Shown: one piece after another, positions 40,227-57,403 of the stretch | How the letters are laid out: the number at the start of each line of letters is the position of its first letter | Numbering within the stretch: position 1 is the stretch's first letter | NCBI RefSeq assembly: GCF_009827395.1 | Contig: NZ_WTYX01000001.1 | Location: 1,803,722 to 1,867,721, forward strand | Source of the DNA: Pontixanthobacter aquaemixtae | GTDB taxonomy: Bacteria; Pseudomonadota; Alphaproteobacteria; Sphingomonadales; Sphingomonadaceae | Direction: 5' to 3' | DNA: 64,000 nucleotides | Translations under genes and position numbers: made by a program | The notes under the pieces: generated by a model | Seen by the model: the letters and a program-made list of their open reading frames with translations, nothing else | Databases searched by the model: none | What the model was told of the DNA's origin: nothing

Positions 40227-41528
40227 TCATGCGGATTTTGGTTTGAGTGGTTTGATTTCGCCGCACAGCACCCAGACACTGGCAATGGCTGTCAGCGCCA
40301 GAACTGCGCCCAGGACGAAAACGGAATAGTAATTGGCGCCGGCAGTCATGATCGGAACCACGAATGTTAGCCCTGCGGCGCTTAATTTCGCCGCCATGCC
40401 GGCTATCCCGGACAATGTTCCGACAGTATCCTTGCCGTAGAGGTCACTTGGCAAAGTCTGGACATTGCCGATCGCAACCTGAAATCCGAAAAGGATCGCG
40501 AACATCAGCCACAGCGCAACCCAAGGCGACGATGCCGCCGACAGGGCCAGCAGCGCTGGCAACATGATAAGACAGCCGAGTGTGATAACGAATTTGCGAG
40601 TCCTGTTTACACTCCAACCCGCATTGATCCGGTTGCCGGCCAGCAAGCCTCCTGCCCAGGCGCCAAGCATCGCGCCGACAAATGGCAACCACGCTGACGC
40701 GGCCACATCCTTGATCGCAAAATTATGGACTTCGAAGAAGTAAGTCGGGATCCAGATGATAAACAACCACCAGATGGGATCGATCACAGCCGTGGCGATA
40801 ATCACGCCCCAGCTTTCCTTGCGTGCCAAAAGCTCGCCCGTGGTCGGGTTATAACCTTCGTCGCCAGCGCCATCTGTACTCTCGACCTTCTGGCCGGTTA
40901 GAATGTACTCGCGTTCATCGTCGCTCAGCCAATCATGGCTTTTTGGCGGTCCTTTGACGATGAACCACCACGGCACCAGCCAGACCAGGCCAACCAAGCC
41001 GACGAGTATGAAGATCAGTTTCCAATCCAGAAGCACGGCCATAAAACCGATTAGCGGGATCGAGATGATTCCGCCGATAGCCGCGCCGGAGTTGAAGATG
41101 CCTTGCGCCAGCGCGCGCTCTTTGGTTGGAAACCACTCTGCATTCGCTTTCGTCGCGCCTGGCCAGTTGCCCGCTTCGGCCACACCAAGCACCGCGCGGA
41201 AGAAACTGAAGCTAAGCACACCTTGCGCAAAGGCATGCGCCGCGGTTGCGAGCGACCATACCCCGATTGACAGCACGAAGCCCAAGCGCGTCCCGATCCA
41301 ATCGAAGATCTTCCCGAAGATCGCTTGGCCAGCGGCGTAAGCGAAAATGAATACAGTGCTGATGATACCCAGAATGTATTTGTGGCCGTCAGCATCCATG
41401 TCCGGAAACAAGTCCGGCGCAATATGCTCTGGCCAGAGGACGTTGATTGTCTGGCGATCGATATAATTGATGATCGTCGCAATCGCGACAAGTCCAACCA
41501 CCCACCAGCGTAGTCCCTGCATTTTCAT
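40227..41528 (-). CDS. MFS transporter, anion:cation symporter (hexuronate-type) family
   Basis: 433 residues with twelve helices. The N-terminal INYIDRQTINVLWPEHIAPDL and the FGKIFDWIGTRLGF loop are typical of the ACS family (ExuT/DgoT/GarP relatives), as is AEAGNWPGATKANAEWFPTKERALAQGIFNSGAAIGG. In this operon it should carry DEH or unsaturated mono-uronate across the inner membrane. It begins two bases after KdgF and shares its transcript. Confidence 0.9.
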   Translation of the reverse strand: MKMQGLRWWVVGLVAIATIINYIDRQTINVLWPEHIAPDLFPDMDADGHKYILGIISTVFIFAYAAGQAIFGKIFDWIGTRLGFVLSIGVWSLATAAHAFAQGVLSFSFFRAVLGVAEAGNWPGATKANAEWFPTKERALAQGIFNSGAAIGGIISIPLIGFMAVLLDWKLIFILVGLVGLVWLVPWWFIVKGPPKSHDWLSDDEREYILTGQKVESTDGAGDEGYNPTTGELLARKESWGVIIATAVIDPIWWLFIIWIPTYFFEVHNFAIKDVAASAWLPFVGAMLGAWAGGLLAGNRINAGWSVNRTRKFVITLGCLIMLPALLALSAASSPWVALWLMFAILFGFQVAIGNVQTLPSDLYGKDTVGTLSGIAGMAAKLSAAGLTFVVPIMTAGANYYSVFVLGAVLALTAIASVWVLCGEIKPLKPKSA

Positions 41529-41895: not shown

Positions 41896-44058
41896 TTAGT
41901 TTCCTTCTCCGCCCATTTCGATCCGCCCCGCAAAGCCGGCCCACGAGACTTCACGCCCGTCGATTTCGACTTTGTGCACCGCATCCGGGTCGTCATTGTA
42001 AGAGATTGCCAATGCGGTTCTTGCGCCGCCTTTTGTCTCGACGATCACGACGTCGTATTTCGGGTGCTCAACGTGCCGCAGCGACGCAACCAGACTTCTG
42101 CTGCCGATGGTCTGCTCTGTAGCGCCGTCATACAGACCGTGCGTTTCGATCATGCTGACAAACGTCATGCTATCTGTGTCACTGGCACGCTGGATAACGA
42201 TGGGCTCGCGGCGCAGATTAAAATCCGGATCATTCGCGCCGCTCTCCGCCAGGATCACCTGCATCTTGTCACGCGGCACAAAGCGGTAGGTGTAAAACCT
42301 TCCGTCCAGTATCCATGTCATGAAAGCGTCGTCGGCTTTTGGCGATCCAATTCCATCAACCCAGATGTGCTGATAGCCATCACTTTCGCCCAATACAGGA
42401 CGCGGACCGACGTTGCGATCGGGTTCAAATCCGGTTTCCATGATATGGCCGGAATAATGCAGCGGCAGATCGAACTGCAGTTGGCCTTTGCCGGTTGCAC
42501 GCATGACGTCGACCGTCACAGGCGCATTCAGGCCCGCAACATCCATCAGCGCCAATGTCCGCGTCATGGTGACGTTGACTTCGGGATAGGCTGAATCGAT
42601 GGTTGCAGTGCTGACCTGCAACTCCGGTTGCGCCGAAAAATAAAGCTGCTCAGGTGCAAATGTGTCCGCAACTTTTACATCGCCGCCAAAATGAGTGGTT
42701 TCGTTCACCACCAATGCGTTGTGTGCGATGCTTTGCTTGGCCCAGCTTTCGTTCTCGGGGAGATAACGCCCCCCTTCTTTCGCCTCGATATTGAGGAAAC
42801 GCGCCGCGCCATAGTCGCGGACGATCTCGTTGCCATTGTCGTACAGCTGCCAGCTGAGCTTGTCGAAATGGCCATGCCCCATTCCCTGAGAGCTGTTTTT
42901 TGCAACGAGCGCGGTATGGCGCGGGCCCGTGCCGTGGCGAAAAACCGCAACTGCGCCCTCATCGCCGTCTGGTCCGTCACTCAGCAAAATCGATTTGAAA
43001 TTGAACGGCGATGGCTTTCCCGCCTCCAGATCGCGCGAAACTTTCAATCCGTTTTCGCTCAAAACAGTGCGGCCTTGAAATTTGGCAATGGACAGCAGCC
43101 CGGGATCACCAGTTTCTGCATATGCGATCGCCACACCCTCATACAGCTCGGCCGTGTTGAGGCTTTTGTCGCGGATGGCATCGTTAAACGGGAAGAAATA
43201 ACCGCCATAGGTGAGCTGGATTGTCGTGGTCAGCGCCTTTTTCAGAATACCGTCGCGGTGCTCGAAAATGCGGCGTTCGGGTTCATTCTTGGCGATCGCA
43301 TCGGCAAAAACCATGAAAGGAAGCAAAGCAAAGCGCTGATAATATGGCCCTTCGGTGTAGTAACCGTCAGGCGAAAACAACAGCTCGGTCTGGCGCAAGA
43401 ATCCCGTCTCTCCGCTCTTGTCCGAACCAAGCAGCGCCCGATCCACCATGTCCCGATCGCCGAGAAGATACCCTGTCATGCCAACGCCGGCAGTTGCCCA
43501 GGTCGCGTGGTTATGGATCAGATTGAATGTCCGCTCCGAATCAACCGACAGGAACCGTGCCGCGGGACGAAAGACGTTATTGTCGATTATTTCGCGCTCT
43601 TCATCGGTCAGAGTATCGCGAATATTTGCGTAGCCCTGCACCGAATGGACCAGCCACATTGCGTCATTCAGAACCTGCCAGAACAGCCGCCCAACATTCT
43701 GGTTTGCCTTTGCCGGGTGATCACCCAGCGTTGGATACAGCTCTGCATATTCGAGCAACATATCGCGCACGAAGTCACGATACTTCAGGTCACCTGTGAT
43801 ACGGTACAAATCGCCCGCCAGATACATGGCGCGGAAATTCCGTTTGTGCTGTTCATGCGTGTATCCGCCGCCGGGATCCTTCGGAACCGGGACAGTGATA
43901 CCTTGCTCCATCATGCCCGCAACAAACGCGTCGGCACGCTCCACTTCGGCTGCGAACAAAGGCGGAAGATCGCTGGTATCTTCCGCAGCCTGCACCGGAA
44001 AAACCAGTCCACACGCGGCAAGCATCAATGCCGAGAACACTAAGAGCAGATGCCTCAT
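41896..44058 (-). CDS. Alginate (oligoalginate) lyase, PL17 family
   Basis: 720 residues. A signal sequence with lipobox-like LMLAAC (about 11-16) indicates a periplasmic lipoprotein. The N-terminal alginate-lyase (alpha/alpha)6 domain carries NHATWATAGVGMTGYLLGDRD and YTEGPYYQRFALLP, containing conserved His and Tyr residues. The C-terminal heparinase II/III-like beta domain has GHGHFDKLSWQLYDNGNEIVRDYG. PL17 enzymes are usually exolytic and release unsaturated monomers from oligoalginate. The start overlaps the PL6 stop, and kdgF follows immediately. Confidence 0.93.
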   Translation of the reverse strand: MRHLLLVFSALMLAACGLVFPVQAAEDTSDLPPLFAAEVERADAFVAGMMEQGITVPVPKDPGGGYTHEQHKRNFRAMYLAGDLYRITGDLKYRDFVRDMLLEYAELYPTLGDHPAKANQNVGRLFWQVLNDAMWLVHSVQGYANIRDTLTDEEREIIDNNVFRPAARFLSVDSERTFNLIHNHATWATAGVGMTGYLLGDRDMVDRALLGSDKSGETGFLRQTELLFSPDGYYTEGPYYQRFALLPFMVFADAIAKNEPERRIFEHRDGILKKALTTTIQLTYGGYFFPFNDAIRDKSLNTAELYEGVAIAYAETGDPGLLSIAKFQGRTVLSENGLKVSRDLEAGKPSPFNFKSILLSDGPDGDEGAVAVFRHGTGPRHTALVAKNSSQGMGHGHFDKLSWQLYDNGNEIVRDYGAARFLNIEAKEGGRYLPENESWAKQSIAHNALVVNETTHFGGDVKVADTFAPEQLYFSAQPELQVSTATIDSAYPEVNVTMTRTLALMDVAGLNAPVTVDVMRATGKGQLQFDLPLHYSGHIMETGFEPDRNVGPRPVLGESDGYQHIWVDGIGSPKADDAFMTWILDGRFYTYRFVPRDKMQVILAESGANDPDFNLRREPIVIQRASDTDSMTFVSMIETHGLYDGATEQTIGSRSLVASLRHVEHPKYDVVIVETKGGARTALAISYNDDPDAVHKVEIDGREVSWAGFAGRIEMGGEGN

Positions 44059-46322
44059 TTTGCCGGCTCCCCATCAAAGGAATTCCCGGAGGCGGCAACC
44101 CGCGGTTCACCATCAAAAACCAATTCTTCAAATACCGGCGCTGGCGTTGCTGCGAAGCTGTTGTCGGCAACGGTGGTCTTGGGTGTACCAACAGTATGGA
44201 CAATTTTGAGTGGGGCCGAACTTGAGAGCGCATTGCGTGCAATCATGGCGGTTTGGACACCATGCAGGTTGATCGCTGCGCCAGAACCGTTTGTTGCGGC
44301 CCTGCCCACATCAGACAGAGCATTTTGGCTGATGTTCACATAGGGGCCGAAAGTGCTTTCATCACGGCCGCCGCGATAGATGTCTGCGATCGGGCCTCCG
44401 ACATTGGCGAAGCTGCTATCGACGATATCGAGATACTCTACATTATACTGCCCGTAATCCTCCGTCTCGGCAGCTGCAGACACCACGGCTCCCGAAATAT
44501 CGGCGAAAGCGCTGTTCCTGATCGAAACGCGATCTGCCATCGAGCTTTTACCCAGCGTCAGGACGTTGAAGGACTTGTTCACGGTCAGGTTGCGAACCGC
44601 AACGCCGTCAAACTCGATCTGCATATTTGACTGGATCGGGAAAGTGGTGGTGCGAATTACCGAATTCCCAACCGAGTCCGGCGCGAGCTCGCCATCAACC
44701 ACCAGGTCGAATAGCTGCAAGTCCGCACCCTCGCGCAGTTCGATCAGGGAAGGCCGCGCAAATTTGATGACCGGTGCAGGTTTACCGGGCGCGGCCATCC
44801 CTTTGATCGTTAGCGGCTTGTCCAGCAGGATTGTGCGTTCCACAATGTATTCGCCGCCCGAGAGCATAAGCACATCGCCCGGCTGCGCCGAAGCGATTGC
44901 CAGAACGAGCGTGTCGTCACCCGGACCAACCTGTGTGACCGTGCCGCTGGTTCCAAATGGCCCGTCATCCGACGGCTTAGGGTACCAGGAAACGCCAACC
45001 TGATCGAGCGTTACCGGGGCAAGATCGCGCGGGGCACCGACCCCGGCTAGCGATGCTTCCGCCGGATAGAGCAATCCGTTGTCGGCACGCACCAGTTCAA
45101 CCGGCGCAATTTCGATCGCAGGCAAAGCGCTGTCCAGTTCGCCTGCAATCACCCGATTGCCACTAAAGCTGATCCCCGAAATGTCGGCATCCACCTCGAT
45201 GAATGGCTCGTCCGACGTCCCGCTAAGCAGGTTGTCAGCAAATGTGGTGTTGGTCGGAATCGCGGATCGTTCGGCATCTGCCCCAAGGCCAAGCGTGATA
45301 CGCGCGCTGTCGACAACCGTGTTTCGCTCGATAGTGGCATTCTCGACTTCAACATAGCGGTTAACCGGCGAATTGGGCACGCCATTCATGACCGCAATCG
45401 CGCTTGAGAAAGCCTTGCCTCGCAGCCCCTCCATGTAATTGCCGCGGATGGTCTGATCGCGGTTTATGATCCGGACGCCGCCGGTATAATCTTTGCCGCC
45501 ACCAAGGAAGACATTGCGTTCGACCAGATTCCCATCACCATGGCGCAGGGTCAGCGTGCCCCGCGAGCGCAGGAAGAGATTCCCGCGAAAAATGTTTCCG
45601 CCGGATTTCGATGAAATGATCTCGACCTCTCCATCGGTCCGGTCAAACACGTTGTTTTCAACCAGCGTGTTGGAATCGAACATCGAATAGTGGCTGGTTC
45701 CGAGGCGCAAGGTCTCCCCGCCATTGGAACCCAGAACCGGGCGCGGACCGAAATAATTGTGATCGATCCGGTGTCCGTTTTCGCGGCTTTCTTCGCTATC
45801 GAGCCTTACCGCAAATGTAACACCCTTGTTGGTCTTCCCGACCAGATGATTGTGATCGAACCTATTGTTTTTTCCGTAAACTCCGACCCAATAGTCGGAT
45901 TCATACCGATCAGGCTTGCTGAAATGATCGATTACCGTCTGGGTGACCCGGCTATGCCGCGCCAAATCCTGTTTGTTGCGGCGGAAGGAAATCACTTCGC
46001 CGCGCGGGCTGAAACCATCCTTAAAGACCAGTCCCGACACGACGATATACTCACCGCCGATCCGCAGGCTGGACTGGCCGGTGAGCAGAACACTGCCGGG
46101 GGTTTCGGATCGGACTGTGATCGGATCGCCAGCAGCACCCTTTCCGGTAATGACCATTTCGAAATCGCGCCATTCGCCATTAGCCAGAACGATTTCATCA
46201 CCCGCCTTCACATGCTTGGCAGCCGCGGAAAATTCGCTTTGATTGTGGACCAGAAATTGTTCGGCAGCGGCAGGCGCCCCCAATGCGAGAAGGAGCGCCA
46301 AACAGGCAATCAATCTGACCAT
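44055..46322 (-). CDS. Alginate lyase, PL6 family
   Basis: 755 residues with a signal peptide (about 1-20, ending in PAAAEQ). The N-terminal parallel beta-helix carries the PL6 catalytic region GKTNKGVTFAVRLDS followed by RIDHNYFGPRP. A second beta-helix-like domain fills the C-terminal half. PL6 lyases cleave mannuronate-containing alginate by beta-elimination. It is the first gene of the operon PL6-PL17-kdgF-MFS-SDR-kdgK. GGAGAGGGAA precedes the start, and a strong promoter with an embedded palindrome lies 36-64 bases upstream. Confidence 0.93.
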   Translation of the reverse strand: MVRLIACLALLLALGAPAAAEQFLVHNQSEFSAAAKHVKAGDEIVLANGEWRDFEMVITGKGAAGDPITVRSETPGSVLLTGQSSLRIGGEYIVVSGLVFKDGFSPRGEVISFRRNKQDLARHSRVTQTVIDHFSKPDRYESDYWVGVYGKNNRFDHNHLVGKTNKGVTFAVRLDSEESRENGHRIDHNYFGPRPVLGSNGGETLRLGTSHYSMFDSNTLVENNVFDRTDGEVEIISSKSGGNIFRGNLFLRSRGTLTLRHGDGNLVERNVFLGGGKDYTGGVRIINRDQTIRGNYMEGLRGKAFSSAIAVMNGVPNSPVNRYVEVENATIERNTVVDSARITLGLGADAERSAIPTNTTFADNLLSGTSDEPFIEVDADISGISFSGNRVIAGELDSALPAIEIAPVELVRADNGLLYPAEASLAGVGAPRDLAPVTLDQVGVSWYPKPSDDGPFGTSGTVTQVGPGDDTLVLAIASAQPGDVLMLSGGEYIVERTILLDKPLTIKGMAAPGKPAPVIKFARPSLIELREGADLQLFDLVVDGELAPDSVGNSVIRTTTFPIQSNMQIEFDGVAVRNLTVNKSFNVLTLGKSSMADRVSIRNSAFADISGAVVSAAAETEDYGQYNVEYLDIVDSSFANVGGPIADIYRGGRDESTFGPYVNISQNALSDVGRAATNGSGAAINLHGVQTAMIARNALSSSAPLKIVHTVGTPKTTVADNSFAATPAPVFEELVFDGEPRVAASGNSFDGEPAK

Positions 46323-46431: not shown

Positions 46432-47172
46432 TCAGGCAATTTTTGAGGCAGCTGCAAAGCGCTCACGGCTGGCGGAGGAACGTTGCTGCAGCTCCTCAAG
46501 CGCCTGCCTTTCGGTTGCGTCCAGCATTGCTTCGATCAACCGATGGAAATGTTCTCGCATGGCAGCTCTTGCGCCTGCAGGGTCACGCTCTTTCAGGGCG
46601 TCGTAGACTGCCTTGTGTTCCTCTGTTCGCGAATCCGCATCGTGCACACAGACAGCTTCATAGGTCGCCTTAACTTCGGGAAGCTCTTCACGCATCCGCC
46701 AGAGAGTTTTGATCGTATGCACCATCGCTAGGTTGTTGGAGGCTTCTGCAATGGTCAGATGGAATTCCTGATCTGCTTCATTCGCCGCACCTTCGTCCCC
46801 CGTCCGCATCTGGTTGATCAACTGCCCCAAGCGAAGGATGCCTTCGTCGGTGATATTATGCGCCGCCAGTGCCGCAGCTTCGGATTCCACCAGCAATCGC
46901 GCTTCGGTCACTTCGAATGCACTTGCACCCGGCAAAGCCTCGGCGAGCTCGGGCTTGTTCTCACTTACGTAAACACCAGAACCGGTCTTGATTTCCAGCC
47001 GGCCAACGGCTTGCAAGGCAATCTCGGCTTCGCGGATCGTCACACGGCTGACGCCCAGTTTCTCCGCAAGCTCTCTTTCCCCGGGCAGCCTTGTACCAGG
47101 AGGGTAAGCCCCATCGTCGATAAGCGTTGCAATTTGCTCTGCTACAGATTGGAAAAGTCGCTTGGTGCTCAT
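46432..47172 (-). CDS. FadR-type GntR regulator (FCD domain) of the alginate locus
   Basis: 246 residues. A winged helix spans about 1-70 (ERELAEKLGVSRVTIREAEIALQAVGRLE). An all-helical FCD ligand-binding domain follows, with metal/ligand segments DQEFHLTIAEASNN and AMREHFHRLIEAML. FadR-subfamily repressors commonly sense uronates or related acids; KDG or DEH is the inferred effector here. It is transcribed between the TBDR at 47298 and PL6. Its upstream region carries TGGTCTATACCA, resembling the sites at both alginate TBDR promoters. Confidence 0.9.
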   Translation of the reverse strand: MSTKRLFQSVAEQIATLIDDGAYPPGTRLPGERELAEKLGVSRVTIREAEIALQAVGRLEIKTGSGVYVSENKPELAEALPGASAFEVTEARLLVESEAAALAAHNITDEGILRLGQLINQMRTGDEGAANEADQEFHLTIAEASNNLAMVHTIKTLWRMREELPEVKATYEAVCVHDADSRTEEHKAVYDALKERDPAGARAAMREHFHRLIEAMLDATERQALEELQQRSSASRERFAAASKIA

Positions 47173-47217: not shown

Positions 47218-47297
47218 ATATCCTAGTTGAAGAGGCCCGATTTAGCCAGCCGTGAGGCTGACCGGCGGCAATCGGTGGATTTGCCGCCGGCCAAAAC

Positions 47298-50200
47298 TTA
47301 AAATTTGAAGCGAACGCCGGCAAAGTAACGCGGCCCGTAGACCAGCACCTGGCCGAGATCGTCCGGCGCACCGCGGAAGTCTGTCCGCGGCTCGTTGAAC
47401 AGGTTCAAGCCCTCGACCGTTACCTTGATATTGTCTGTAACCGCTAAAGACGCGCGCGCTTCAAACACATTCACATCATCAGTGTAGCGAATACGACCGG
47501 GCGTTCCGACAAATTGCTGGAAGTAGTTGCTACGGTATTTGTAAACCCCCTGAAGATCGAGGGGGCCAAGCTGGTAGTACACCTGCGCAGACAAAACATG
47601 CTTGGAGAAGCCGAACAAGTTTGCGGGCGGAATAATGCCGGGCGTCGTTGTAATTGAACCGTCATCATTAACCGTTCGGATCGCCCCCAGAGTGTCGTCT
47701 TCAAACTCGAAGTTAGAGTCGGCGTAGTTGTAGCTCAGCTTGAATCCCAGACCATCAAGCGGAGCGGGCAGATAGCTTAGACGGTGCGCAGCGGTAACCT
47801 CCAGACCGTAGATCGTGCTGGTCTCTTCACTCACATTCGCTGTTGTGACTAGAACATTGAGATCCTGGCCATCGACCTGGAAAGTCTCGAACTGGCCGAC
47901 CGTCTCAAACCCACCGTCAAAGCTTTTGTAGTATGCATTGAAAGCGAGAATAGTGTCATCGTTAGGATACCACTCTAGACCAAAATCGACATTCCAAGAC
48001 AGCAACGGATCTGTAAACGGATTGCCCGTTGCATTTGCTGTTCCCACGATTTCACTGATGCTGGTTGCACCATCACTGTCGTCCGTAGACCCAGTAAACG
48101 TCCGCCCCGAACTCAGATCCGATGGATCGGGTCGCGAGAGTGCACGATAGACCGCGAAACGGCCCAGTAGATCAGGCTGGAAGTCAGCAACCAAGTTCAA
48201 GCTTGGCAGGAACTCCGTATACGAGTTCTTTGACGTGACAGGCAAAAGGGTGCCGTTATCCTCAACGATCGAAACCGTTCCATCTGGCGCCGTTACCGAA
48301 GACAGAGAGCCGCGGAAGCCATCGGAGATAACCTTAGTTCCTACCACTCTTAGCCCGACGTTGCCCCGTAGAGGCATGCTGCCGAGATCAGTAGCAAAAT
48401 TGGCCTGTCCGTAGAGCGCCCAAGAGCGCTCCTCAACTTGCGAATTCTGGATTGAGTCAAAGTCGCCTGTCGGAAAAATGACATTGCCGTCTTCATCAAA
48501 ATTGATCAAATCCGATGGATCTTCACGATCAAGCACACGAACGATGCATCGAGCATCGAAAGTAGCATAGGTGTTGGTAGTTCCAATCACATTGCCGTTC
48601 TCGTCAATGTTGGTGACGAGCGGGTTCCCGTTGGAAATTGCGTCCAGGAACCCGGTCTGCGGGAACGCAGTGCGACACTCCTGGTTTGCAACGGCAAGCG
48701 CGCCAGTGCCATCAGTATCGTTGAAATTCACCTCGAACCGGCTTGATCCGTTCACAGCCCCCGGGACATCCCGGTAGGTGAGCTGCTGGTAGCGTGCACC
48801 AGCCAGCAACGTGTTGAAGAAGCCATCGCCGAGGTCGTATTCGACATCACCGCGAAGAGCCCAGACTTCATTGAAACGGTCTTGCTCCAAATCGGCACGA
48901 ACACGTGGATCGTTCGCGAAGAGCGAATGGTCAGTTACGTCAAAATTCTGGACAATGAAATTGAGCCCGCCCGAACCGTTCTGAAATATCTGAGTCAGGG
49001 TCTCAACCCGGTCATCGTTAGATGTGTTTCCGTCATCTTCGACAACATTGGGGAAAAAGTCATCGCCGTTGGCATCAGTGTTGCCAAAAATTGATTCCCC
49101 ATCTTCTGTACGGAAACGGACCTGTACGGCCTCCTCGATACGCTGAGTGCGTGAATAGGATGCGTCGAGCGAGATTTTCACACGGTCCGAAACTTGCGCG
49201 TCAAGCGACAAACCACCGCCGTAATACTCTTCATCGCGCTCCAGATATTCGCTGACCGCTTCAATCCGGGTTTCGTTGGTAAACAGACGAAGCGCACCGG
49301 AGTCGGTAGCCACCAAGGTTTGCGGCAAGCCAAGGAGCGCCGCAATGTTGTTCTGATCGCCCTCTGGCGTAATCCGGCGACCTTCAGAAAAGTTTAGATC
49401 GCTGCGCTGCTCGGCAAACTTGCGCTTTGAATATTGAAAATCCGCATTGATATCGACATCGGGCGACGGTTTATACTGGACCGCACCAAAGAAGGCGTCG
49501 CGATTGTCGCTAGTGATGTTGTTTCTAAAGGCATAGCCGTTGCGCGCAATCACAAACGGCTCTTGTCCGGCAAAAATAGAGCCTAGCGCATTAATACCGC
49601 TGGTGTCAGTGTCACAGTTGTCCTCATCCGCAACACCGTCATTCTCAGCCACAAGAGCCGGATTGAGCGAGCAAGCCCTGATAGTATTCGAAACCTGAAC
49701 CTCTTGTTCTGGATTGTTCGAATCACGGCGCTCATAGCCAAGCGAAATACCCAGCTCGCCATCGCCGAGATTGAACTGATCAACATAGCTGAGCGAACCG
49801 CGATAACCGAATTTGTTGAAGCGCTGATCCGCCGCGATATCGAGATTGTCGGGATTGATTTCAGCTTTGATCTGGCCTTGCAGACGGCGCTTGCCATAGT
49901 CGAGCGGGCGAAGCGTTTCGAGCACAATTTGCCCGGCAACACCGCCCTCAATGTAGCTCGCCGCCTGCGTCTTATAGATACCGATCTTGTTGAACAGTTC
50001 CGACGGAAACTGGCTGAAATTGACCGAGCGATCACCGCTGCCGTTGGAAGCAATACGGCCGTTAATTACTGTCGATCCAAGGAATGGCCCGAGGCCGCGA
50101 ATCGAGATTTCAGTCGCGCCGCCTTGCTCGCGGTGCGAACCTGCGCCTGTCAGAGTTTCAAGCGCTTCGCCGATCGACAATGCGGGGATGTCGCCAATTT

Positions 50201-50450
50201 CTTCGGCCGACAGCGCGTCGAAAACCTCGGTCGATTCGCGCTTCTCGGCAATCGAGCCCTGAATTGTCTGGCGAATACCGCTTACAACGATAACATCATC
50301 ACCGCCTGCTGCTGGCTCTTCCGATTCTGCATCTTGCGCAGCCGCCATTGACGGCACAGCCAAAGCAGAAATTGCGGCCCCCACCAACAGCGCCCGGCCA
50401 AAAGCCGCACGGCGATTCATTGAGTCAAACTGACGAAAATTCTTGGACAT
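47298..50450 (-). CDS. TonB-dependent receptor, probable alginate oligomer uptake (1)
   Basis: 1050 residues. A signal peptide of about 40 residues ends near MAAAQDAES. The TonB-box region is DVIVVSGIRQTIQGSIAEKRESTEV. The plug follows (SAEEIGDIPALSIGEALETLTG, then ISIRGLGPFLGSTVINGR). The large barrel ends in GPRYFAGVRFKF. A GGGAGGGA ribosome site precedes the ATG. It is the first of two large receptors in the alginate locus. Their promoters share a paired motif, so co-regulation is likely. Alginate specificity is inferred from the locus. Confidence 0.9.
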   Translation of the reverse strand: MSKNFRQFDSMNRRAAFGRALLVGAAISALAVPSMAAAQDAESEEPAAGGDDVIVVSGIRQTIQGSIAEKRESTEVFDALSAEEIGDIPALSIGEALETLTGAGSHREQGGATEISIRGLGPFLGSTVINGRIASNGSGDRSVNFSQFPSELFNKIGIYKTQAASYIEGGVAGQIVLETLRPLDYGKRRLQGQIKAEINPDNLDIAADQRFNKFGYRGSLSYVDQFNLGDGELGISLGYERRDSNNPEQEVQVSNTIRACSLNPALVAENDGVADEDNCDTDTSGINALGSIFAGQEPFVIARNGYAFRNNITSDNRDAFFGAVQYKPSPDVDINADFQYSKRKFAEQRSDLNFSEGRRITPEGDQNNIAALLGLPQTLVATDSGALRLFTNETRIEAVSEYLERDEEYYGGGLSLDAQVSDRVKISLDASYSRTQRIEEAVQVRFRTEDGESIFGNTDANGDDFFPNVVEDDGNTSNDDRVETLTQIFQNGSGGLNFIVQNFDVTDHSLFANDPRVRADLEQDRFNEVWALRGDVEYDLGDGFFNTLLAGARYQQLTYRDVPGAVNGSSRFEVNFNDTDGTGALAVANQECRTAFPQTGFLDAISNGNPLVTNIDENGNVIGTTNTYATFDARCIVRVLDREDPSDLINFDEDGNVIFPTGDFDSIQNSQVEERSWALYGQANFATDLGSMPLRGNVGLRVVGTKVISDGFRGSLSSVTAPDGTVSIVEDNGTLLPVTSKNSYTEFLPSLNLVADFQPDLLGRFAVYRALSRPDPSDLSSGRTFTGSTDDSDGATSISEIVGTANATGNPFTDPLLSWNVDFGLEWYPNDDTILAFNAYYKSFDGGFETVGQFETFQVDGQDLNVLVTTANVSEETSTIYGLEVTAAHRLSYLPAPLDGLGFKLSYNYADSNFEFEDDTLGAIRTVNDDGSITTTPGIIPPANLFGFSKHVLSAQVYYQLGPLDLQGVYKYRSNYFQQFVGTPGRIRYTDDVNVFEARASLAVTDNIKVTVEGLNLFNEPRTDFRGAPDDLGQVLVYGPRYFAGVRFKF

Positions 50451-50517
50451 AAATCCCTCCCAACGGGTTTGTGTTTGAGTCCGGCATATAGAACAGGCCG
50501 ATTAAGTCAACCGTTTG

Positions 50518-50552: not shown

Positions 50553-50596
50553 GAGCGGTCGGCTATCCGTTGCCATTCCCGAGCCTTCAATCGCGC

Positions 50597-50642
50597 AAAA
50601 AATAGGCCCGTCTGCTTTATGGGAGAATAAGCAGACGGGCCT
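50597..50642 (-). terminator. Rho-independent terminator of the TBDR at 50694
   Basis: On the minus strand a perfect 14-bp stem (AGGCCCGTCTGCTT paired with AAGCAGACGGGCCT) around an 11-base loop is followed by a run of six T. It begins 52 bases past the TBDR stop and separates the two receptor transcripts. Confidence 0.93.
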
Positions 50643-50693
50643 GACTTGAAACGACCGGCAGGTTTTCACCTGAAGGTCAACCAAGCAAAAAAG

Positions 50694-53681
50694 TTAGAAG
50701 CTCAACGAGGCTCCAAACGTTAGGCGCCGGTCGGGCAGCCCTTGGAAGCAAAGCAGCGCTCCTGAGTTGATGCACGATTGTGTGATCTTGGATTTGGTCA
50801 GATTCACACCTTCAACACCGATGTTCAGGAAATCGGTCACGTCATAATTGATGCTGGCATTGAGCTGGCCGCGTGCCTCGGTGACTACCGGGAAGCCGAT
50901 AGTGCTGCCAAGGCTGGCGCCGCCGGCTGTATCAAGCGTCCGGAATTCATCGCGCCACGTGTAACGCGCCCGAGCCGACAGACCGTATTTTTCATAGAAC
51001 AGCGTTACGTTGTACGCATGCGGTGAGAAATCCAGCAGGCCTTGAACGGCGGTAAATGGTCCTGTCAGGCCGCTGCTCGATTCAAGGATCTCTGTACCGC
51101 GGCTATCAGCATCCGATGTGTTGGTAAGCGTACCGCCACTGAATTCCTGATAAGTGTAGTTAGCAATCACACCAAAGCCTGATGCGAAGCCCAGCGTGTC
51201 TTCGAAGCCAGAGAGGTCATACTGGAATGCAACTTCGATACCCGACTGTTTGGTGGTTCCAGGATCGTTTACGATGGTCTGGATGGGCACGCACAGGCCG
51301 TTGCCGGGAACATTCGACAACACGTTGCGGTCCGGAAGCGGGTTGAAGATACCGCCGCCTTCGCACGGAGGCGTGATGTCCCGGAAGCCGTTTGCATCCA
51401 ATGCAGCGGCCTCTTCTTGCGTTACGAACAGGTTGGTGCGTTCTTTGTGGAAGACGCCAACGCTGAACACCGCTGCTGGCGCAAAGTACCAGCTGAGCGA
51501 GGCGTCATATGAGCGCACTGTCTCTGGTGCCAGGTTTGGATTGCCGATGTTGACGGCGTTGTTTGGCCCGGTGGGGAAGTTTACCGAAAGAGACAGATCG
51601 TCAAAATCCGGTCGGTTGATATCTTCACCAAAGCTAGCGCGGAACACCAGATCATCGGTCAGGTCCGCGATCACGTTCACGCGAGGCAGGAACTGCGTAT
51701 AGCTACCGCCGGCAGTCACCGGCGTCACCACACCCGCTGCAACATTATTGCCCAGCGAGTTGATCGAAGTATCCAACCAACGCGCGCCGACATTGCCGCG
51801 AACCCGGCCAAATTCGAAGTTCAGCTGGCCGTAAAGCGCGTGCGTCTTCTCCGTGATTTCGAAGAACGCAGCCGGATCAGAAACCGGGTCGCCGATTGAA
51901 CCATTGGTGGTCGCAAGCGCAGCCTGCAGAATATCGAGCGTTCCATCCGGATCGTCGAATGCCAAGTCCGGATTTACGATAAGAAAGTTGCGGAATGCGA
52001 GCGCCCGGCCGTCAGCCGCATCAAAATTGCTGGGCCCGGGAACCAGCAATTGCGAGAACAAGGTCCCACTTGGGCTGTTTGCGATCGCGCCGGTACCGAA
52101 TGTCGACCGGATCTGGTCAAAACGCGTGGACGCCCGGGTGTAGCGATAACCGGCATCGACCGAAGTGATGAAACCAAGGCTGTCGAACGTGTCGTAGGAC
52201 AGGTCCACGCGGAACGCATCTTCGCGGTTTTCGGTTTCATTGCGGCTTGCGGTAATCGCATCCAGCACCGTGTTCGCTGGATCGAGCAGATCAGCGACGG
52301 TTGGCGCGAATGGCGATGCGAAATCGACACCAAAGGTCAGCGCGCCATTGCGAAGATCGTAGATAAACGGAACCGCATTGTCGTTGCTAGTACCATCGAG
52401 TGGTGTGAGCGGGTTCGGATTGATGAAGTTCAGCGTTGTGCTGAGGTTAGGATTGACCGTGTCCGATTCTGTGACCGACCCTTCCACACGGACCGTCAAA
52501 TTGCCGGTTTTCCATTCTGTTCCCAAGCGATAGACCTGAGTGGTTGTCACACGCGCGCCCGTATCGCTCGAGAAACGAAGGTTCGGATCGTCGTCATCGC
52601 GCGCCAGATTCGGCTGGATCGTGCCGGTAAGAGCCGCTTCAATGCTGCCCAGGTTCACACCGCCCAGCGAACCAAAGTTGACCGTTTCGAACGAGTCAGG
52701 AACGTTGTTGAAGCGCAGCGCGCTAACGCCGGAAGCCTGGATCCGTGTACTATCCTGACGACGTTCCTGATCGTTGTAGATCATGTCGAAAAAGAAGTTC
52801 AGATCATCGGTTGGTGCGAATTCCAGGGTCCCCGAGAAGTTGATCGTTTCATATTCGAAGTTCTCAAGTTCCTGATTGAGGAACTGAATGCCGAGATAGT
52901 CATAGTTCGGTCCGGGAGCGCCAGCCGCAGTGACACCGCCATCGGTCGCTTCGATCAGCGTGTCACGGTCTACGCGAGGGCGGAATGAAGTCGCCTCTTG
53001 TTCGGCGTAGCTTGCTGCGAGCACAAGACCGATCCGGCCCGCGCCAACATCCCAATTGTCACCAAAGCTGGCTGAATACCTTGGGCTGATGCTGTCGGAA
53101 AGCTCGCTATATTCACCCTGCGCGCGTAACGAGAGCACGCGATCGCGCAGATCGAGCGGGCGAATCGTGCGCAGGTTCACTGTACCACCAACGGACCCCT
53201 CGGTTGTTGCGGCAGTTGGCGCCTTGGTGACTTCAACCGACGCAATAATGGCGGCGTTGATGTCTTCAAAACTGATACCACCACGGCCCGTACCCGAACC
53301 CACTGTACCAACACCGTTGATCTCAACGCGGTTTTCGTTCGTACCACGAATTTGAACGCCGGAACCCACACCCGCACGGCGGGTGATTTGAACGCCGGTT
53401 ACGTTTTCAAGAACTTCCGCGAGGTTTTGGTCAGGCAGCTTACCAATATCTTCAGCCTGAATGACCTCAACAAGACTATCGGCGTCGCGCTTCTCATTGA
53501 GCGCGCTTTCCAGTGAGCTACGGATACCGGTGATGACAATAACATCATCGTCCGACGATTCGACCGCTTCGCCCTGATCCTGCGCGAAAGCAGTTCCCGG
53601 GACCGCAAGCGCCACCACAGAAGCGCCCGCCATAAGTTTCAAGAGACGGCGCGAATTAGCGCCAAAAGCAGTTTGAGACAT
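50694..53681 (-). CDS. TonB-dependent receptor, probable alginate oligomer uptake (2)
   Basis: 995 residues from ATG 53681, which has GGAGGGG upstream. The longer open frame to 53936 runs across the promoter and the divergent gene and was rejected. The signal peptide ends in GTAFAQ (about 34). The TonB-box region is DVIVITGIRSSLESALNEKRDADSLVE. The plug has AEDIGKLPDQNLAEVLENVTGVQI and QIRGTNENRVEINGVG. The barrel ends in LTFGASLSF. It is divergent from the Nramp-like/uxuA/PL7 operon and ends in a strong terminator. Confidence 0.91.
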   Translation of the reverse strand: MSQTAFGANSRRLLKLMAGASVVALAVPGTAFAQDQGEAVESSDDDVIVITGIRSSLESALNEKRDADSLVEVIQAEDIGKLPDQNLAEVLENVTGVQITRRAGVGSGVQIRGTNENRVEINGVGTVGSGTGRGGISFEDINAAIIASVEVTKAPTAATTEGSVGGTVNLRTIRPLDLRDRVLSLRAQGEYSELSDSISPRYSASFGDNWDVGAGRIGLVLAASYAEQEATSFRPRVDRDTLIEATDGGVTAAGAPGPNYDYLGIQFLNQELENFEYETINFSGTLEFAPTDDLNFFFDMIYNDQERRQDSTRIQASGVSALRFNNVPDSFETVNFGSLGGVNLGSIEAALTGTIQPNLARDDDDPNLRFSSDTGARVTTTQVYRLGTEWKTGNLTVRVEGSVTESDTVNPNLSTTLNFINPNPLTPLDGTSNDNAVPFIYDLRNGALTFGVDFASPFAPTVADLLDPANTVLDAITASRNETENREDAFRVDLSYDTFDSLGFITSVDAGYRYTRASTRFDQIRSTFGTGAIANSPSGTLFSQLLVPGPSNFDAADGRALAFRNFLIVNPDLAFDDPDGTLDILQAALATTNGSIGDPVSDPAAFFEITEKTHALYGQLNFEFGRVRGNVGARWLDTSINSLGNNVAAGVVTPVTAGGSYTQFLPRVNVIADLTDDLVFRASFGEDINRPDFDDLSLSVNFPTGPNNAVNIGNPNLAPETVRSYDASLSWYFAPAAVFSVGVFHKERTNLFVTQEEAAALDANGFRDITPPCEGGGIFNPLPDRNVLSNVPGNGLCVPIQTIVNDPGTTKQSGIEVAFQYDLSGFEDTLGFASGFGVIANYTYQEFSGGTLTNTSDADSRGTEILESSSGLTGPFTAVQGLLDFSPHAYNVTLFYEKYGLSARARYTWRDEFRTLDTAGGASLGSTIGFPVVTEARGQLNASINYDVTDFLNIGVEGVNLTKSKITQSCINSGALLCFQGLPDRRLTFGASLSF

Positions 53682-53760
53682 TTTTACCCCTCCAACGAGA
53701 CTATTTTTGACATTAGTTTTTGGGCTGGATAACGTGCAGCCCAGATATGTCAACCATTGA

Positions 53761-53801
53761 GCTATACCTTTGTGAATATTTCTGTCATACCAATTTGGTA
53801 T
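53761..53801. promoter_or_regulatory. Paired operator motif in the TBDR / Nramp-like divergent region
   Basis: GCTATACC (53761-53768) and GTCATACC (53784-53791) again start 23 bp apart. The second copy runs into the perfect 15-bp palindrome ATACCAATTTGGTAT (53787-53801). The region serves the TBDR to the left and the Nramp-like/uxuA/PL7 operon to the right, so one regulator could control both. Confidence 0.7.
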
Positions 53802-53838
53802 TACGCTGTTGGGAAGGCATAAGCGAGGAAGCGAAAGT

Positions 53839-55071
53839 ATGAAGAACAGGCTGGCGCTTTTCCTCCCGGGTATTTTCCTGCTGGGGTTCAATATCGGAAC
53901 GGGCAGCGTCACGACCATGGCCACAGCTGGCGCCAACTACGGCATGGCCTTGCTTTGGACGGTGCTGATTTCCTGTGCCGCTACTTACCGGATGATTGCG
54001 ACATACGGACGCTACACACTCGTGACCGGAGAAACCGCGCTGCAGGCCTTCCGGAGCCACATTCACCCAGCGATCGGTGCCTTTTTCATCGTTGCGCTGG
54101 GAATTGGCGTGTGCGCCAGCGTGATGGGTGTGATGGGGATCGTGGCAGAAATTGCCTATGAATGGTCCAAGACATTTATAGCGGGTGGAATTGATCCGCT
54201 CTATTGCGCCGCATTCTTTGCGGCCATCGCCTATTTCATTTTCTGGAGCGGAACGACGCAGCTCTTCGAAAGAGCACTAGCTGTAATTGTGGCCGTTATG
54301 GCTGGCGCCTTCGTCCTCAACTTTTTCATTCTAATGCCACCCGTTAGCAGCATTGCCGCGGGGCTAGTTCCGTCTGTTCCGGCCGTTTCCAAGAGCGAGA
54401 CCGGTCCATTGCTGCTAATCGCATCGATGGTTGGCACAACGATTTTTTCCGGCCTGTTCATTATGCGCACCACGCTGGTCAAGGAAGCCGGCTGGACGAT
54501 TGATCACGAAAAGCAGCAGCGCCGCGATGCGGCTTTTGCAGCGATCATGATGTTCATTATCAGCGCTTCGATTATGGCAGCCGCAGCTGGCAGCCTATTC
54601 GCCGAAGGTATAGGCCTGGAGCGCGCTTCTCAAATGATCGGTTTGCTTGAACCCCTGGCCGGAGTTCTGGCGGTTTCGATTTTCGCAATTGGCATCATTG
54701 CGGCGGGGGTATCTTCGCAGATTCCAAATCTATTGATGATTCCGTGGCTGCTTTGCGATTATCGCGGCACCCAACGCGATATGACAATTTGGCAGTATCG
54801 GTCGCTTGCCTTTCTGCTTTCACTTCTGGCACTGATCGTGCCGCTATTTGATGCCAGACCAGTTTTTGTGATGATCTTGAGTCAGGCATTCAATGTAGTG
54901 CTGCTGCCGGTAACCGTGGGCTGTATATTGTATCTCGGCAATCGCGCAGACCTGATGGGCAAACACAAGAATAGCCTGACGGACAATATTGGCCTCATCC
55001 TATTGTTCCTGTTTGCCCTCTTCACCGGATATATGGCGTGGCAAGGGCTGGTCGCGATGCTTGCAGGCTGA
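53839..55071 (+). CDS. Nramp-related membrane transporter without the canonical metal-binding motif
   Basis: 410 residues from ATG 53839, with about eleven hydrophobic helices and overall Nramp-like sequence (TAGANYGMALLWTVLISC after helix 1). Canonical Nramp proteins have DPGN in helix 1 and a Met-Pro-His metal site in helix 6. Here helix 1 reads GFNIGTGSVTTMATAG and helix 6 reads GTTIFSGLFIMRTT, so neither metal-binding set is present. A divalent-metal role is therefore doubtful. It is the first gene of the operon with uxuA and PL7, 14 bases before uxuA, which suggests an organic acid such as a uronate or KDG as substrate. That is inference only. Confidence 0.75.
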   Translation: MKNRLALFLPGIFLLGFNIGTGSVTTMATAGANYGMALLWTVLISCAATYRMIATYGRYTLVTGETALQAFRSHIHPAIGAFFIVALGIGVCASVMGVMGIVAEIAYEWSKTFIAGGIDPLYCAAFFAAIAYFIFWSGTTQLFERALAVIVAVMAGAFVLNFFILMPPVSSIAAGLVPSVPAVSKSETGPLLLIASMVGTTIFSGLFIMRTTLVKEAGWTIDHEKQQRRDAAFAAIMMFIISASIMAAAAGSLFAEGIGLERASQMIGLLEPLAGVLAVSIFAIGIIAAGVSSQIPNLLMIPWLLCDYRGTQRDMTIWQYRSLAFLLSLLALIVPLFDARPVFVMILSQAFNVVLLPVTVGCILYLGNRADLMGKHKNSLTDNIGLILLFLFALFTGYMAWQGLVAMLAG

Positions 55072-55085
55072 AGGAAGGACAAACG

Positions 55086-56273
55086 ATGCGCGAATCCTGG
55101 AGATGGTTTGGCCCAAACGACCCCGTCACATTGGCCGATATCCGGCAGACGGGCGCAACTGGTATTGTGAGCGCGCTCCATGACATTGCAATCGGTGAGG
55201 TTTGGCCGAGAGAAGCGATCGCTGAACGCAAAGCGCTGATCGAACAGGAAAATGCCGAGAAGTCACCCCTTCATTGGACCGTGGTTGAGAGCATTCCGGT
55301 TCACGACGACATCAAACTCGCCGCACCAGGCCACGAGCGATACGTCAACAATTGGATCGAAACTCTGCGCAATCTTGCCGCTGAGGGAGTCAGAACGGTT
55401 TGCTACAATTTCATGCCGGTGATCGATTGGACGCGGACCGACCTGAAATATCAAATGCCAACGGGTGCGTTTGCCCTGCGGTTCGATCAAGACAGGTTTG
55501 CGGCGTTCGATCTGTTTGTTCTGAAACGCAAAAACGCGGCCGCGGACTATTCTGAATCGAAAGTCGCACGCGCGCGCGGTATCTTCGAGGCGATGGATCC
55601 TGAAGAGGAAGCCAACCTCACTCGAACAATAATTGCCGGGCTCCCCGGGAAAATGACCGACGCATATTCACTTGCTGATTTCCGGAAAGCCTTGGCCCGA
55701 TATGAAGGTGTGACCCACACCGTGTTGCGACAAAACCTGGTCGCGTTTCTGACCAAAGTTTTGCCCCACGCTGAAAAGTTGGATGTTAAATTGGCAATCC
55801 ATCCGGACGACCCGCCTTGGGATATGTTCGGCTTGCCCCGAATTGTTTGTACGCCCAGCGATCTCGACAAGTTGTTTACTGCCCTTCCCAGCCCCGCCAA
55901 TGGCATTACGCTTTGTGTTGGAACCTATGGCAGCCGCCCTGACAATGATTTGCCGCAAATGGCCCGCAGCTATGCGGAACGAATTCATTTTGCGCATTTG
56001 CGCGGCGTGACGCGCGATCCGGAGGAACAGCGCTCGTTTTATGAGGCGAGTCATCTGGAAAGCGATGTCGACATGGTCAGCGTGATCCGGAACTTGCTAG
56101 TGAACGAGGATGCCACCGGACGTGAAATTCACATCCGTCCCGACCACGGTCATCTAATGATGAGTGATATCGGGAAGAATACCAACCCCGGCTATTCAGC
56201 CATAGGCCGGATGAAGGGGCTGGCTGAAATCCGCGGCGTAATCAAAGCGATGTCGGTAACGGGAATTCAATAG
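55086..56273 (+). CDS. uxuA: Mannonate dehydratase
   Basis: 395 residues from ATG 55086, following GAAGGAAGGAC. Family motifs present include WRWFGPNDPVTL, VESIPVHDDIKL, LAIHPDDPPWDMFGLPRIV, RIHFAHLRGVTR-type sequence and IRPDHGHLM, supplying the catalytic and metal-binding His residues. It converts D-mannonate to KDG, feeding the same kinase as the alginate operon. No uronate isomerase or fructuronate reductase gene lies in the window. It sits between the Nramp-like gene and PL7. Confidence 0.93.
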   Translation: MRESWRWFGPNDPVTLADIRQTGATGIVSALHDIAIGEVWPREAIAERKALIEQENAEKSPLHWTVVESIPVHDDIKLAAPGHERYVNNWIETLRNLAAEGVRTVCYNFMPVIDWTRTDLKYQMPTGAFALRFDQDRFAAFDLFVLKRKNAAADYSESKVARARGIFEAMDPEEEANLTRTIIAGLPGKMTDAYSLADFRKALARYEGVTHTVLRQNLVAFLTKVLPHAEKLDVKLAIHPDDPPWDMFGLPRIVCTPSDLDKLFTALPSPANGITLCVGTYGSRPDNDLPQMARSYAERIHFAHLRGVTRDPEEQRSFYEASHLESDVDMVSVIRNLLVNEDATGREIHIRPDHGHLMMSDIGKNTNPGYSAIGRMKGLAEIRGVIKAMSVTGIQ

Positions 56274-56347
56274 TGCGAAGCGCGGTTCATTTCGCGTTGA
56301 CCCCTGCAAGTTTAGGCAATCAAGAGCGATTTCAAAGGACAGGACTT

Positions 56348-57403
56348 ATGACTAAACGCAAGCACCGGAACCAGGCCCTAATTCTTGGTTTGGCGTTTAG
56401 CATCGCGACGCCAGCGATTGCGCATGGCCATGAAGAGGCTGCTCCATTGCCGGGAAGTGTCTTTGATCTGAGCCATTGGAAAATCACTCTTCCCTCCGAC
56501 GACAATGGTGATGGCAAACCAGACGAGATCGGGGTCCGCGATCTGCAATCCTATACCCATCCAGACTTCTTCTTCGTCAACGACGACGGGCACCTGGTAT
56601 TCGCAGCGCCCAACAAAGCGCCAACGACGGCGAATTCAACCAACACTCGCAGCGAATTGCGCCAGATGCTTCGCGGAACAAACACCCGGATCGGGACACA
56701 TGATCCCGGCAACAATTTTGCCGTTGAAGCGCGCAAAGGTTCGGACAAGTTTGGTGCTGTGGGCGGAAAGCTGGAAGCTACGCTCAAAGTCGATCAAGTC
56801 TCGCTCAACGCCGGTGACCCGACCAAGCGCCCGGCATTTTCAGTAGTTGTCGGCCAGATCCACGCGGTAAAATACGACAACACAAGAAGCGGTTTCGGCT
56901 TTGGCAACGAACCGATCAAGATCTATTACAAGAAATTTCCCGGCCACAAAGCCGGCTCGGTTTTTTGGACTTACGAACGCAATCTCGCAAAGGACGATCC
57001 CAACCGAACCGATCTTGCAGTTCCGGTGTTCGGCTATGGCTGGGATAACACAGAGGACCCTGGCGAAAGCGGAATCGCGCTGGGCGAAGAGTTCAGCTAC
57101 ACGATCAATGTCCATCGCAATACGATGTATGTGACATTCCACAATGATCGCTTGGGCACGGTCAACCACACAAGAAGCCTGGTGCGTGGTGCCGATGAGC
57201 TTGACAACCCTTACTCCTATGGCGGGGATTCGCTCTACTTCAAATCCGGGGTCTATAACCAGTGCAGCACCCGAACCGGAGATTCGATGTGGTACGCCGG
57301 CTGCCCGGGTACCGGCGATTGGGAAACAGACAAGGCTGACGGAAACTACGCCCAAGCGACGTTCTCCCGGATTGTCTTGAGCGGATCGACACCACCGGAG
57401 TAA
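56348..57403 (+). CDS. Secreted alginate lyase, PL7 family
   Basis: 351 residues from ATG 56348 (AAAGGAC upstream). The signal peptide ends in TPAIAHG (about 26). The beta-jelly-roll PL7 domain shows all three signature blocks: TRSELRQML (about 100-108), VGQIHAVKYD (Q-I-H at about 170-172) and YFKSGVYNQC (about 297-306). These give the catalytic Arg, Gln, His and Tyr. QIH, rather than QVH, is usually linked to polyG or mixed specificity. It is an endolytic enzyme that would start alginate breakdown outside the cell. It is the last gene of the Nramp-like/uxuA operon. Confidence 0.94.
   Translation: MTKRKHRNQALILGLAFSIATPAIAHGHEEAAPLPGSVFDLSHWKITLPSDDNGDGKPDEIGVRDLQSYTHPDFFFVNDDGHLVFAAPNKAPTTANSTNTRSELRQMLRGTNTRIGTHDPGNNFAVEARKGSDKFGAVGGKLEATLKVDQVSLNAGDPTKRPAFSVVVGQIHAVKYDNTRSGFGFGNEPIKIYYKKFPGHKAGSVFWTYERNLAKDDPNRTDLAVPVFGYGWDNTEDPGESGIALGEEFSYTINVHRNTMYVTFHNDRLGTVNHTRSLVRGADELDNPYSYGGDSLYFKSGVYNQCSTRTGDSMWYAGCPGTGDWETDKADGNYAQATFSRIVLSGSTPPE

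Follow-up and report, generated by a model that had tools for sequence, protein, structure and literature searches.

Canonical transporters of the Nramp/SLC11 family (MntH, DraNramp, BfraNramp) bind their metal ion with residues of transmembrane helices (TM) 1 and 6, i.e., the DPGN and MPH motifs, and residues of TM3 belong to the proton path. Related proteins include the Mg2+ transporter NRMT (EleNRMT, 7qia) and the Nramp-family proteins PxpT, YcsG and PxpG of 5-oxoproline operons. Here we analyzed an Nramp-type permease gene in an alginate cluster of Pontixanthobacter aquaemixtae, located in a stretch of 64,000 nucleotides (contig NZ_WTYX01000001.1, positions 1,803,722 to 1,867,721; the window). 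We describe a clade of Nramp-related permeases that appears tied to sugar-acid catabolism, with D-mannuronate as our best single guess for the substrate.

The PxpT, YcsG and PxpG operons likewise place an Nramp-family protein among catabolic genes, and C. glutamicum needs PxpT for growth on the organic acid 5-oxoproline, with metal transport left possible by the authors (PMC13274462). The initial annotation of the window gene had called an organic substrate new for this fold; in view of PxpT, and since Nramp-related proteins without DPGN are already a described group, this was too strong. A preprint of 2026 on BfraNramp places Nramp-related proteins without DPGN and MPH as paraphyletic to the canonical ones, with a later origin of the metal motif; two groups are named, NRMT-like and 'G-motif 3', the latter with B. 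subtilis MntG (YcsG), and the rest are termed entirely uncharacterised (PMC12873925). Its clade B Nramps have kept DPGN and MPH, with most of the proton path gone (PMC12873925). Given this paraphyly, the metal site may never have existed in the lineage of the permease, and the published phylogeny does not favor the direction 'loss' that was assumed initially.

The inner-membrane alginate transporters described in the available part of PMC8286568, i.e., MFS carriers, the ToaABC symporter and the ABC transporter AlgM1M2SS, hold the same place in the pathway and belong to other families; no Nramp-type carrier is among them. The alginolytic cluster of Alteromonas sp. 76-1 is drawn with an Nramp gene, labelled as a metal-ion transporter (PMC6431674). 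It also lies inside an alginate cluster, as do the Nramp genes of loci L056 and L057 of our survey, and from its description it could be either of the window's branch or of a second type (L053/L054). A review on hexuronates gives, in the part available, the alginate route via the unsaturated monomer DEH only (PMC6353982). For a verrucomicrobium grown on alginate, the cytoplasmic uronate enzymes UxuA, UxuB and UxaC/KduI are listed, Nramp and mannuronate being unmentioned in the excerpt (PMC13274419). 'Nramp' and 'uxuA' co-occur in PMC7660916, where Nramp stands solely in a reference on mouse Nramp1. In titles and abstract openings, a coverage with subscription journals mostly outside, we found no proposal of a sugar-acid Nramp clade, and the term 'mannuronate isomerase' was absent from the matches listed in a literature search that included fructuronate.

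The permease gene is an open reading frame (ORF) coding for 410 amino acids. PF01566 covers it at profile positions 1–356 of 357 (E 4e-55; 187.8 bits, gathering score 29.8), which bore out the initial assignment to the Nramp fold. The protein barely passed the NCBIfam model Nramp_1 (52.5 bits, cut-off 50) and stayed far under the cut-off of the MntH model (76.6 vs 430). It was the single PF01566 protein found in the 2.98-Mb genome, and its named nearest relatives come from Erythrobacter crassostrea and other Erythrobacter-like bacteria. We aligned it with 62 relatives (63-row alignment A2) and obtained an AlphaFold2 model with a mean pLDDT of 84.5 and a pTM of 0.83. When this model was compared with the PDB by Foldseek, the first 17 matches were all Nramp or NRMT (TM-score 0.74–0.83, query length); within the top 15, the entries for DraNramp and BfraNramp scored 0.74–0.83, and EleNRMT, also the second-best solved sequence for the family profile, scored 0.83. 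NKCC1, AdiC, ApcT and BasC followed at 0.56–0.69. A LeuT fold of the Nramp type is hence predicted, and in predicted fold, Pfam family and length the permease is like canonical Nramps.

It differs from them in the substrate site. Site columns were obtained by aligning the A2 profile to the solved Nramps 10ky, 7qia, 8e6h and 8e6i, and we give the DraNramp residue numbers that we take to belong to these columns. The TM1 ligands D56 and N59 are replaced by G20 and S23, and in TM6 M230, H232 and H237 by F203, G205 and R210. On the proton path, TM3 has G97 for E134 and S94 for D131; moreover, L87 stands for E124. None of the canonical marks, i.e., DPGN, MPH and the TM3 Glu/Asp, is kept, as the initial annotation had stated for the first two: GTGS and FSG align in their place. 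An invariant Arg stands at the next TM6 His. G20, T21, G22, S23, G97 and R210 were identical in 63/63 rows, therefore the changed site is a fixed trait of the family and no sequencing error. From the Gly and Ser substitutions one would expect a bigger, uncharged cavity with one invariant Arg. The permease clade also differs from NRMT, which has an Asp at the TM1 column of Gly20 and another gene context.

We then compared the gene context of the best 80 of at least 543 confirmed relatives (53–86% identity to the permease), so that weaker relatives are under-sampled. The comparison extended to at most 10 kb in either direction, and neighbors were labelled by tblastn (E 1e-12, 35% query cover) with references from the window and the relatives, a procedure that distant polysaccharide lyases (PL), UxuBs or MFS transporters may escape. 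The 80 relatives, many from metagenome-assembled genomes, span Alpha- and Gammaproteobacteria, Bacteroidota, Planctomycetes, Lentisphaerales, Neomarinimicrobiota, Calditrichota and others. The D-mannonate dehydratase UxuA lay near the gene in 44/80 loci and was its immediate neighbor in 34/80. A class-I phosphomannose-isomerase-like (PMI-like) protein was found in 29/80 (28 by an ORF-based count), a UxuB-like protein in 12/80, ManD in 5/80, an AGE-type mannose-isomerase-like protein in 4/80 and UxaC in 2/80. At least one of UxuA, PMI, AGE, UxuB and ManD was present in 61/80 loci, i.e., most relatives do not lie outside uronate-type surroundings. From this recurrent linkage to mannonate- and mannuronate-type enzymes we propose a class of putative sugar-acid permeases.

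The complete set of isomerase, UxuB and UxuA was found in 11/80 loci and also in two of the five loci (L055, L145) of a search in the order of genome G792 (Alteromonadales, judged from named relatives). Aliiglaciecola lipolytica, Paraglaciecola polaris and Colwellia polaris are cultured marine bacteria that carry this complete set. All 12 loci with UxuB also hold UxuA and some isomerase, namely PMI or AGE in 11 and UxaC in L074, which suggests that different isomerases occupy one slot. UxaC was otherwise seen in L104 only; being so rare, it indicates that the entering sugar is probably not glucuronate. Together, an isomerase of mannose configuration, a fructuronate reductase and a mannonate dehydratase would make up a pathway from D-mannuronate to KDG.

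One representative of each neighbor family was named by profiles. ManD passed its model (673 vs 550), whereas the UxuB-like (353 bits on fructuronate reductase, cut-off 603), PMI-like (81 on TIGR00218 manA, cut-off 116) and AGE (203 on D-mannose isomerase, cut-off 600) representatives stayed below theirs. The PMI-like family (28 aligned) conserves Q113-x-H115, E133 and H197, which we take to be the zinc-ligand pattern of phosphomannose isomerases, and among solved structures it comes closest to 1qwr, a mannose-6-phosphate isomerase. The PMI-like (L079: 7299–8384, and 28 further loci) and AGE-type proteins (L078: 2505–3689, and 3 further loci) are candidate D-mannuronate isomerases of an undescribed kind.

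Alginate lyases were less frequent, with PL17 in 19/80, PL6 in 18/80 and PL7 in 12/80 loci, any of the three in 28/80 (27 by a stricter ORF count), and UxuA jointly with a lyase in 19/80. We hence rejected alginate as the common theme of the clade. The organic-substrate role suggested initially thus held in so far as the site is replaced throughout the clade and the context survey favors a uronate or sugar acid, whereas the alginate setting is not general.

Within the window's own order, Sphingomonadales, 43 of 296 sampled genomes (own included) matched the permease at E 1e-10, and 7/296, again with the own genome, carried an orthologue of at least 65% identity. UxuA was the neighbor in 7/7 of these. 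Over the whole order UxuA occurred in 24/296 genomes, i.e., in 7/7 with a close orthologue vs 17/289 others (Fisher p 9e-9, relatedness ignored). Two of these seven genomes (loci L033, L034; apparently the same genomes as L063 and L064, so that the order and multi-phylum surveys overlap) have the Nramp–UxuA pair amid unrelated genes, and we found no lyase within 20 kb of it. The distribution of the permease is patchy: a class-level search matched 1/240 genomes, the window itself, and a phylum-level search at E 1e-40 matched 3/398, window included.

The 99-row tree (INDEPENDENCE) gave support 100 for the GTGS branch and 91 for the 80 window-type rows; it omits L121, a cut gene, and both alignments and trees omit L014 and L019. 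On 67 loci longer than 12 kb, the presence of UxuA requires at least 13 changes on this tree, a count that is blind to gain vs loss and in which contig ends may conceal UxuA. The 34 adjacent UxuA genes lie upstream on the same strand in 14 cases, downstream on the same strand in 14 and divergently in six. With order and strand so variable and at least 13 changes, we rejected a single inherited Nramp–UxuA block; the link was formed or broken repeatedly, as expected of a functional link.

In the window, uxuA starts 14 nt past the permease stop, and no second PF03786 gene was found in the genome; strand and spacing suggest that both genes are co-transcribed. The mannonate dehydratase and the alginate lyase named in the initial annotation as neighbors were confirmed by profiles (Table 1). 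The cluster already has a usual MFS carrier near a presumed DEH reductase, the Nramp-type protein being an extra carrier paired to the mannonate enzyme. For the short-chain dehydrogenase/reductase (SDR) in question, no DEH-specific model was among the NCBIfam matches listed.

Table 1. Features of the permease locus (window positions) and of two other loci discussed in the text
Feature	Position	Strand	Basis or remark
Nramp-fold permease, GTGS/Arg210 type	53839..55071	+	PF01566, AlphaFold2, Foldseek
TM1 G20-T21-G22-S23 replacing D-P-G-N	53896..53907	+	profile alignment; invariant 63/63 rows
TM6 F203-S204-G205 replacing M-P-H, through R210 at following His	54445..54468	+	profile alignment; R210 invariant 63/63
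UxuA, D-mannonate dehydratase	55086..56273	+	PF03786 E 2.8e-119; TIGR00695 483 bits, cut-off 199.6
PL7 alginate lyase	56348..57403	+	PF08787 Alginate_lyase2 E 7.6e-59; start codon our choice, longest ORF from 56273
TonB-dependent receptor, divergent to permease gene	50694..53681	-	TIGR01782 520 bits, cut-off 310; start codon our choice
TonB-dependent receptor	47298..50450	-	TIGR01782 456 bits, cut-off 310
GntR/FCD regulator	46432..47172	-	best NCBIfam ExuR, LldR, Uxu operon regulator, all far under cut-off
PL6-type lyase (Chondroitinase B family)	44055..46322	-	PF14592 E 3.1e-110
PL17-type oligoalginate lyase	41896..44058	-	PF07940, PF05426, Alg17C_C PF22686
MFS transporter	40227..41528	-	PF07690; TIGR00893 211 bits, under cut-off 395; putative DEH import
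SDR oxidoreductase, DEH-reductase-like by position	39425..40180	-	PF13561; putative role
PfkB kinase, KDG-kinase-like	38289..39320	-	PF00294; NF041332 KDG kinase 232 bits, under cut-off 440
Separate uronate locus of the same genome	L139: 3257-10535 (C1 near 1,256,000)		TRAP-like carrier by eye, galactarate/altronate-dehydratase-family protein, UxaC, UxuB-like
E. coli SK1144 operon, annotated copy	L149: 4287-11274		Nramp annotated divalent metal transporter

From the predicted fold, the replaced site, the fixed residues and the recurring neighborhood, all of which are observed, we infer that the permease transports, as well as its substrate and direction and the mannuronate-isomerase activity. 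An organic rather than a metal substrate is very probable. We consider it probable, with less assurance, that the protein is an inner-membrane secondary carrier of the Nramp fold whose central site takes an organic acid. The likeliest such acid is D-mannuronate or a hexuronate close to it. For D-mannuronate specifically the balance is nearly even, tipping slightly to the negative. In the proposed scheme, alginate would be degraded before it reaches the inner membrane, by the TonB receptors and the lyases. DEH would then enter through the MFS transporter and the saturated uronate through the Nramp-type permease. Cytoplasmic conversion of D-mannuronate to D-fructuronate by an aldose-ketose isomerase would be followed by reduction to D-mannonate (UxuB) and dehydration to KDG (UxuA), with KDG kinase and aldolase finishing the route.

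If this holds, sugar acids are among the substrates of the Nramp fold, a missing inner-membrane carrier and a missing isomerase of saturated alginate residues have been given a name, and the relative age of metal transport among the functions of the fold becomes testable. One of the largely uncharacterised Nramp-related groups now receives a testable substrate. Proteins of the GTGS branch are automatically annotated as divalent metal transporters, as seen with the member from E. coli, and the window permease passes Nramp_1; many marine genomes, and roughly one in ten complete E. coli genomes, may therefore carry a wrong assignment to metal transport.

A number of observations weigh against a mannuronate permease. 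To our knowledge, transport has been measured for no member of the GTGS branch. R210 does not vary in the NagA-type relatives within A2 either, and therefore is no mark of a uronate substrate. While 61/80 loci hold a sugar-acid enzyme, 16/80 had neither UxuA, PMI, AGE, UxuB, ManD nor any of the three lyases (5/16 on pieces shorter than 7.1 kb), and three of the 16 (L067, L094, L130) lie in plainly unrelated surroundings. In 15/80 loci an isomerase (13 PMI, 2 AGE) occurs without UxuA; four of these (L070, L093, L096, L098) contain a GH38 alpha-mannosidase along with the PMI-like protein, which suggests mannose for those members. The own genome gave zero matches to the PMI-like isomerase, in a search run without positive control, and its one AGE protein is sited among non-sugar genes. 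Its UxaC (592 bits, cut-off 387) and UxuB-like gene lie in a separate TRAP/UxaA-like locus (L139); the UxuB-like ORF of 450 amino acids has a C-terminal domain match ending at 124/190 and may be short or frameshifted. With these genes present, glucuronate may be what the window UxuA serves, and in this genome the mannuronate isomerase is a putative step. The E. coli operon described below is of a CoA-type acid kind without any sugar enzyme. Also, our comparison set for gene context consisted of Nramps with GPGT in TM1, not of true metal Nramps, and the Nramp-related YcsG has been reported as a Mn2+ importer that raises cell Mn2+ (PMC10448178).

Part of these points would fit a permease for another organic substrate, i.e., D-mannose, D-mannonate, D-glucuronate, DEH or another alginate monomer, varying by branch, which we regard as possible, if unlikely. 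The GH38 loci fit mannose, and the UxaC and UxuB-like genes of the own genome fit glucuronate; yet with UxaC in 2/80 loci glucuronate is not the usual substrate. DEH would suit a second type of GTGS Nramp (36–40% identity) whose neighbors are PL6, PL7 and a gluconokinase-type kinase in 3/3 loci from the G792 order (L056, L057, L146; the L057 kinase passes TIGR01313) and such a kinase and PL6/PL7 in Paraglaciecola (L120, L122, L123, which have both GTGS Nramp types). Within the stretch covered, an MFS transporter resembling that of the window was seen in none of these six loci, whereas the window cluster already has its MFS near the SDR. A mannonate permease would need neither isomerase nor UxuB, yet the complete set recurs in 11/80 loci.

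UxuA-type dehydratases require Mn2+ or Fe2+. If the permease imported divalent metals, providing UxuA with this ion, or the PMI-like isomerase with Zn2+, when cells grow on uronates, this would account for the pairing, and would agree with the automatic annotation, with the permease being the sole PF01566 protein found in its genome and with the report on YcsG; moreover, NRMT carries Mg2+ through a different site (PMC9606685). We nevertheless consider it improbable. No canonical ligand is left in the permease, and the Asp of EleNRMT sits at the column where the clade has Gly20. AGE loci without UxuA exist (L077, L078, both short pieces), and the E. coli member lies amid CoA-type acid enzymes. 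Two congeners of P. aquaemixtae (G182, G285) have no homologue at E 1e-10, so that we rejected an essential role of the permease in Mn import across the genus.

Eight GPGT-type loci (L044–L051) had been chosen as negative controls, and they proved not neutral. None of the UxuA, PMI, AGE, UxuB, ManD and PL references matched in 8/8 of them. PxpA adjoins the Nramp gene in L046, L048 and L051 (3/8; the PxpA subfamily model was passed, PxpB/PxpC-like ORFs were recognized by eye), and a fused protein of the hydantoinase/oxoprolinase family, about 1,210 amino acids long, adjoins it in L044, L045 and L047 (Pfam on L044 and L045). The best NCBIfam names of the fused protein are caprolactamase subunits, far under cut-off (L044, L047); from its fused length we take it to be a 5-oxoprolinase. 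If so, two unrelated 5-oxoprolinase types stand beside one transporter type, which fits the PxpT report. With 6/8 loci beside PxpA or an oxoprolinase-family protein, the GPGT Nramps are a second organic-substrate candidate and no metal control; these neighbors give hints of an organic substrate for that branch too. The oxoprolinase-linked Nramps are set apart from the permease by GPGT in TM1 and VPY...H or G in TM6, the PxpT and YcsG sequences themselves being outside the comparison, and the tree, which is without YcsG and PxpT, separates the GTGS from the GPGT branch at support 100. Among the named genes of 38289–57403 in the window there is no 5-oxoprolinase gene.

That the permease is no transporter at all, i.e., a sensor or a degenerate pseudo-transporter, as its divergent site and the lack of any known transport in the branch might suggest, is hardly credible with a full-length open ORF, an AlphaFold2 pTM of 0.83 and strong conservation across several phyla, mostly among enzyme genes.

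The mannuronate permease may be part of a wider pattern. GTGS relatives at 36–40% identity have NagA and NagB beside them in 4/4 loci (L040–L043); in L042 NagA passes its model (282 bits vs 226) and NagB fails (121 vs 237). The gene order of these loci, GTGS Nramp followed by NagA and NagB, points to a possible carrier related to N-acetylglucosamine (GlcNAc). In L038 and L039 a GTGS relative of the same identity range occurs with a TIM-barrel isomerase-like protein, in L038 also with UxuA. An E. coli member, 51% identical to the permease, is chromosomal in 546/5,426 complete E. coli genomes and retains GTGS and the TM6 Arg. It lies between dnaB and qorA in an operon LacI – CoA transferase – enoyl-CoA hydratase – Nramp – fumarate-reductase-like FAD flavoprotein. 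In the tree it stands at the base of the window group (support 93/85), on a long branch and in an unsure position. We tentatively suggest that the whole GTGS/Arg210 branch might consist of organic-anion and sugar carriers (for hexuronates, mannose, amino sugars, DEH and, in E. coli, a CoA-activated acid). The window protein would then be a D-mannuronate permease feeding an unrecognised pathway of PMI-like or AGE isomerase, UxuB and UxuA, and metal transport a late specialisation of an ancestrally organic fold.

A search of plasmids for the permease gave 24 records, 22 of them haloarchaeal at 27–30% identity. An 834-kb 'plasmid' (L148, CP054241.1) with dnaB, alr, tyrB and dusA looks like a misassembled chromosome; the frame of its Nramp copy is broken and the gene unannotated, and intact copies exist. 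In the window, an apparent remnant of a BCCT-family carrier at 35340–35924 (forward strand) covers the first 124 of 485 profile positions only.

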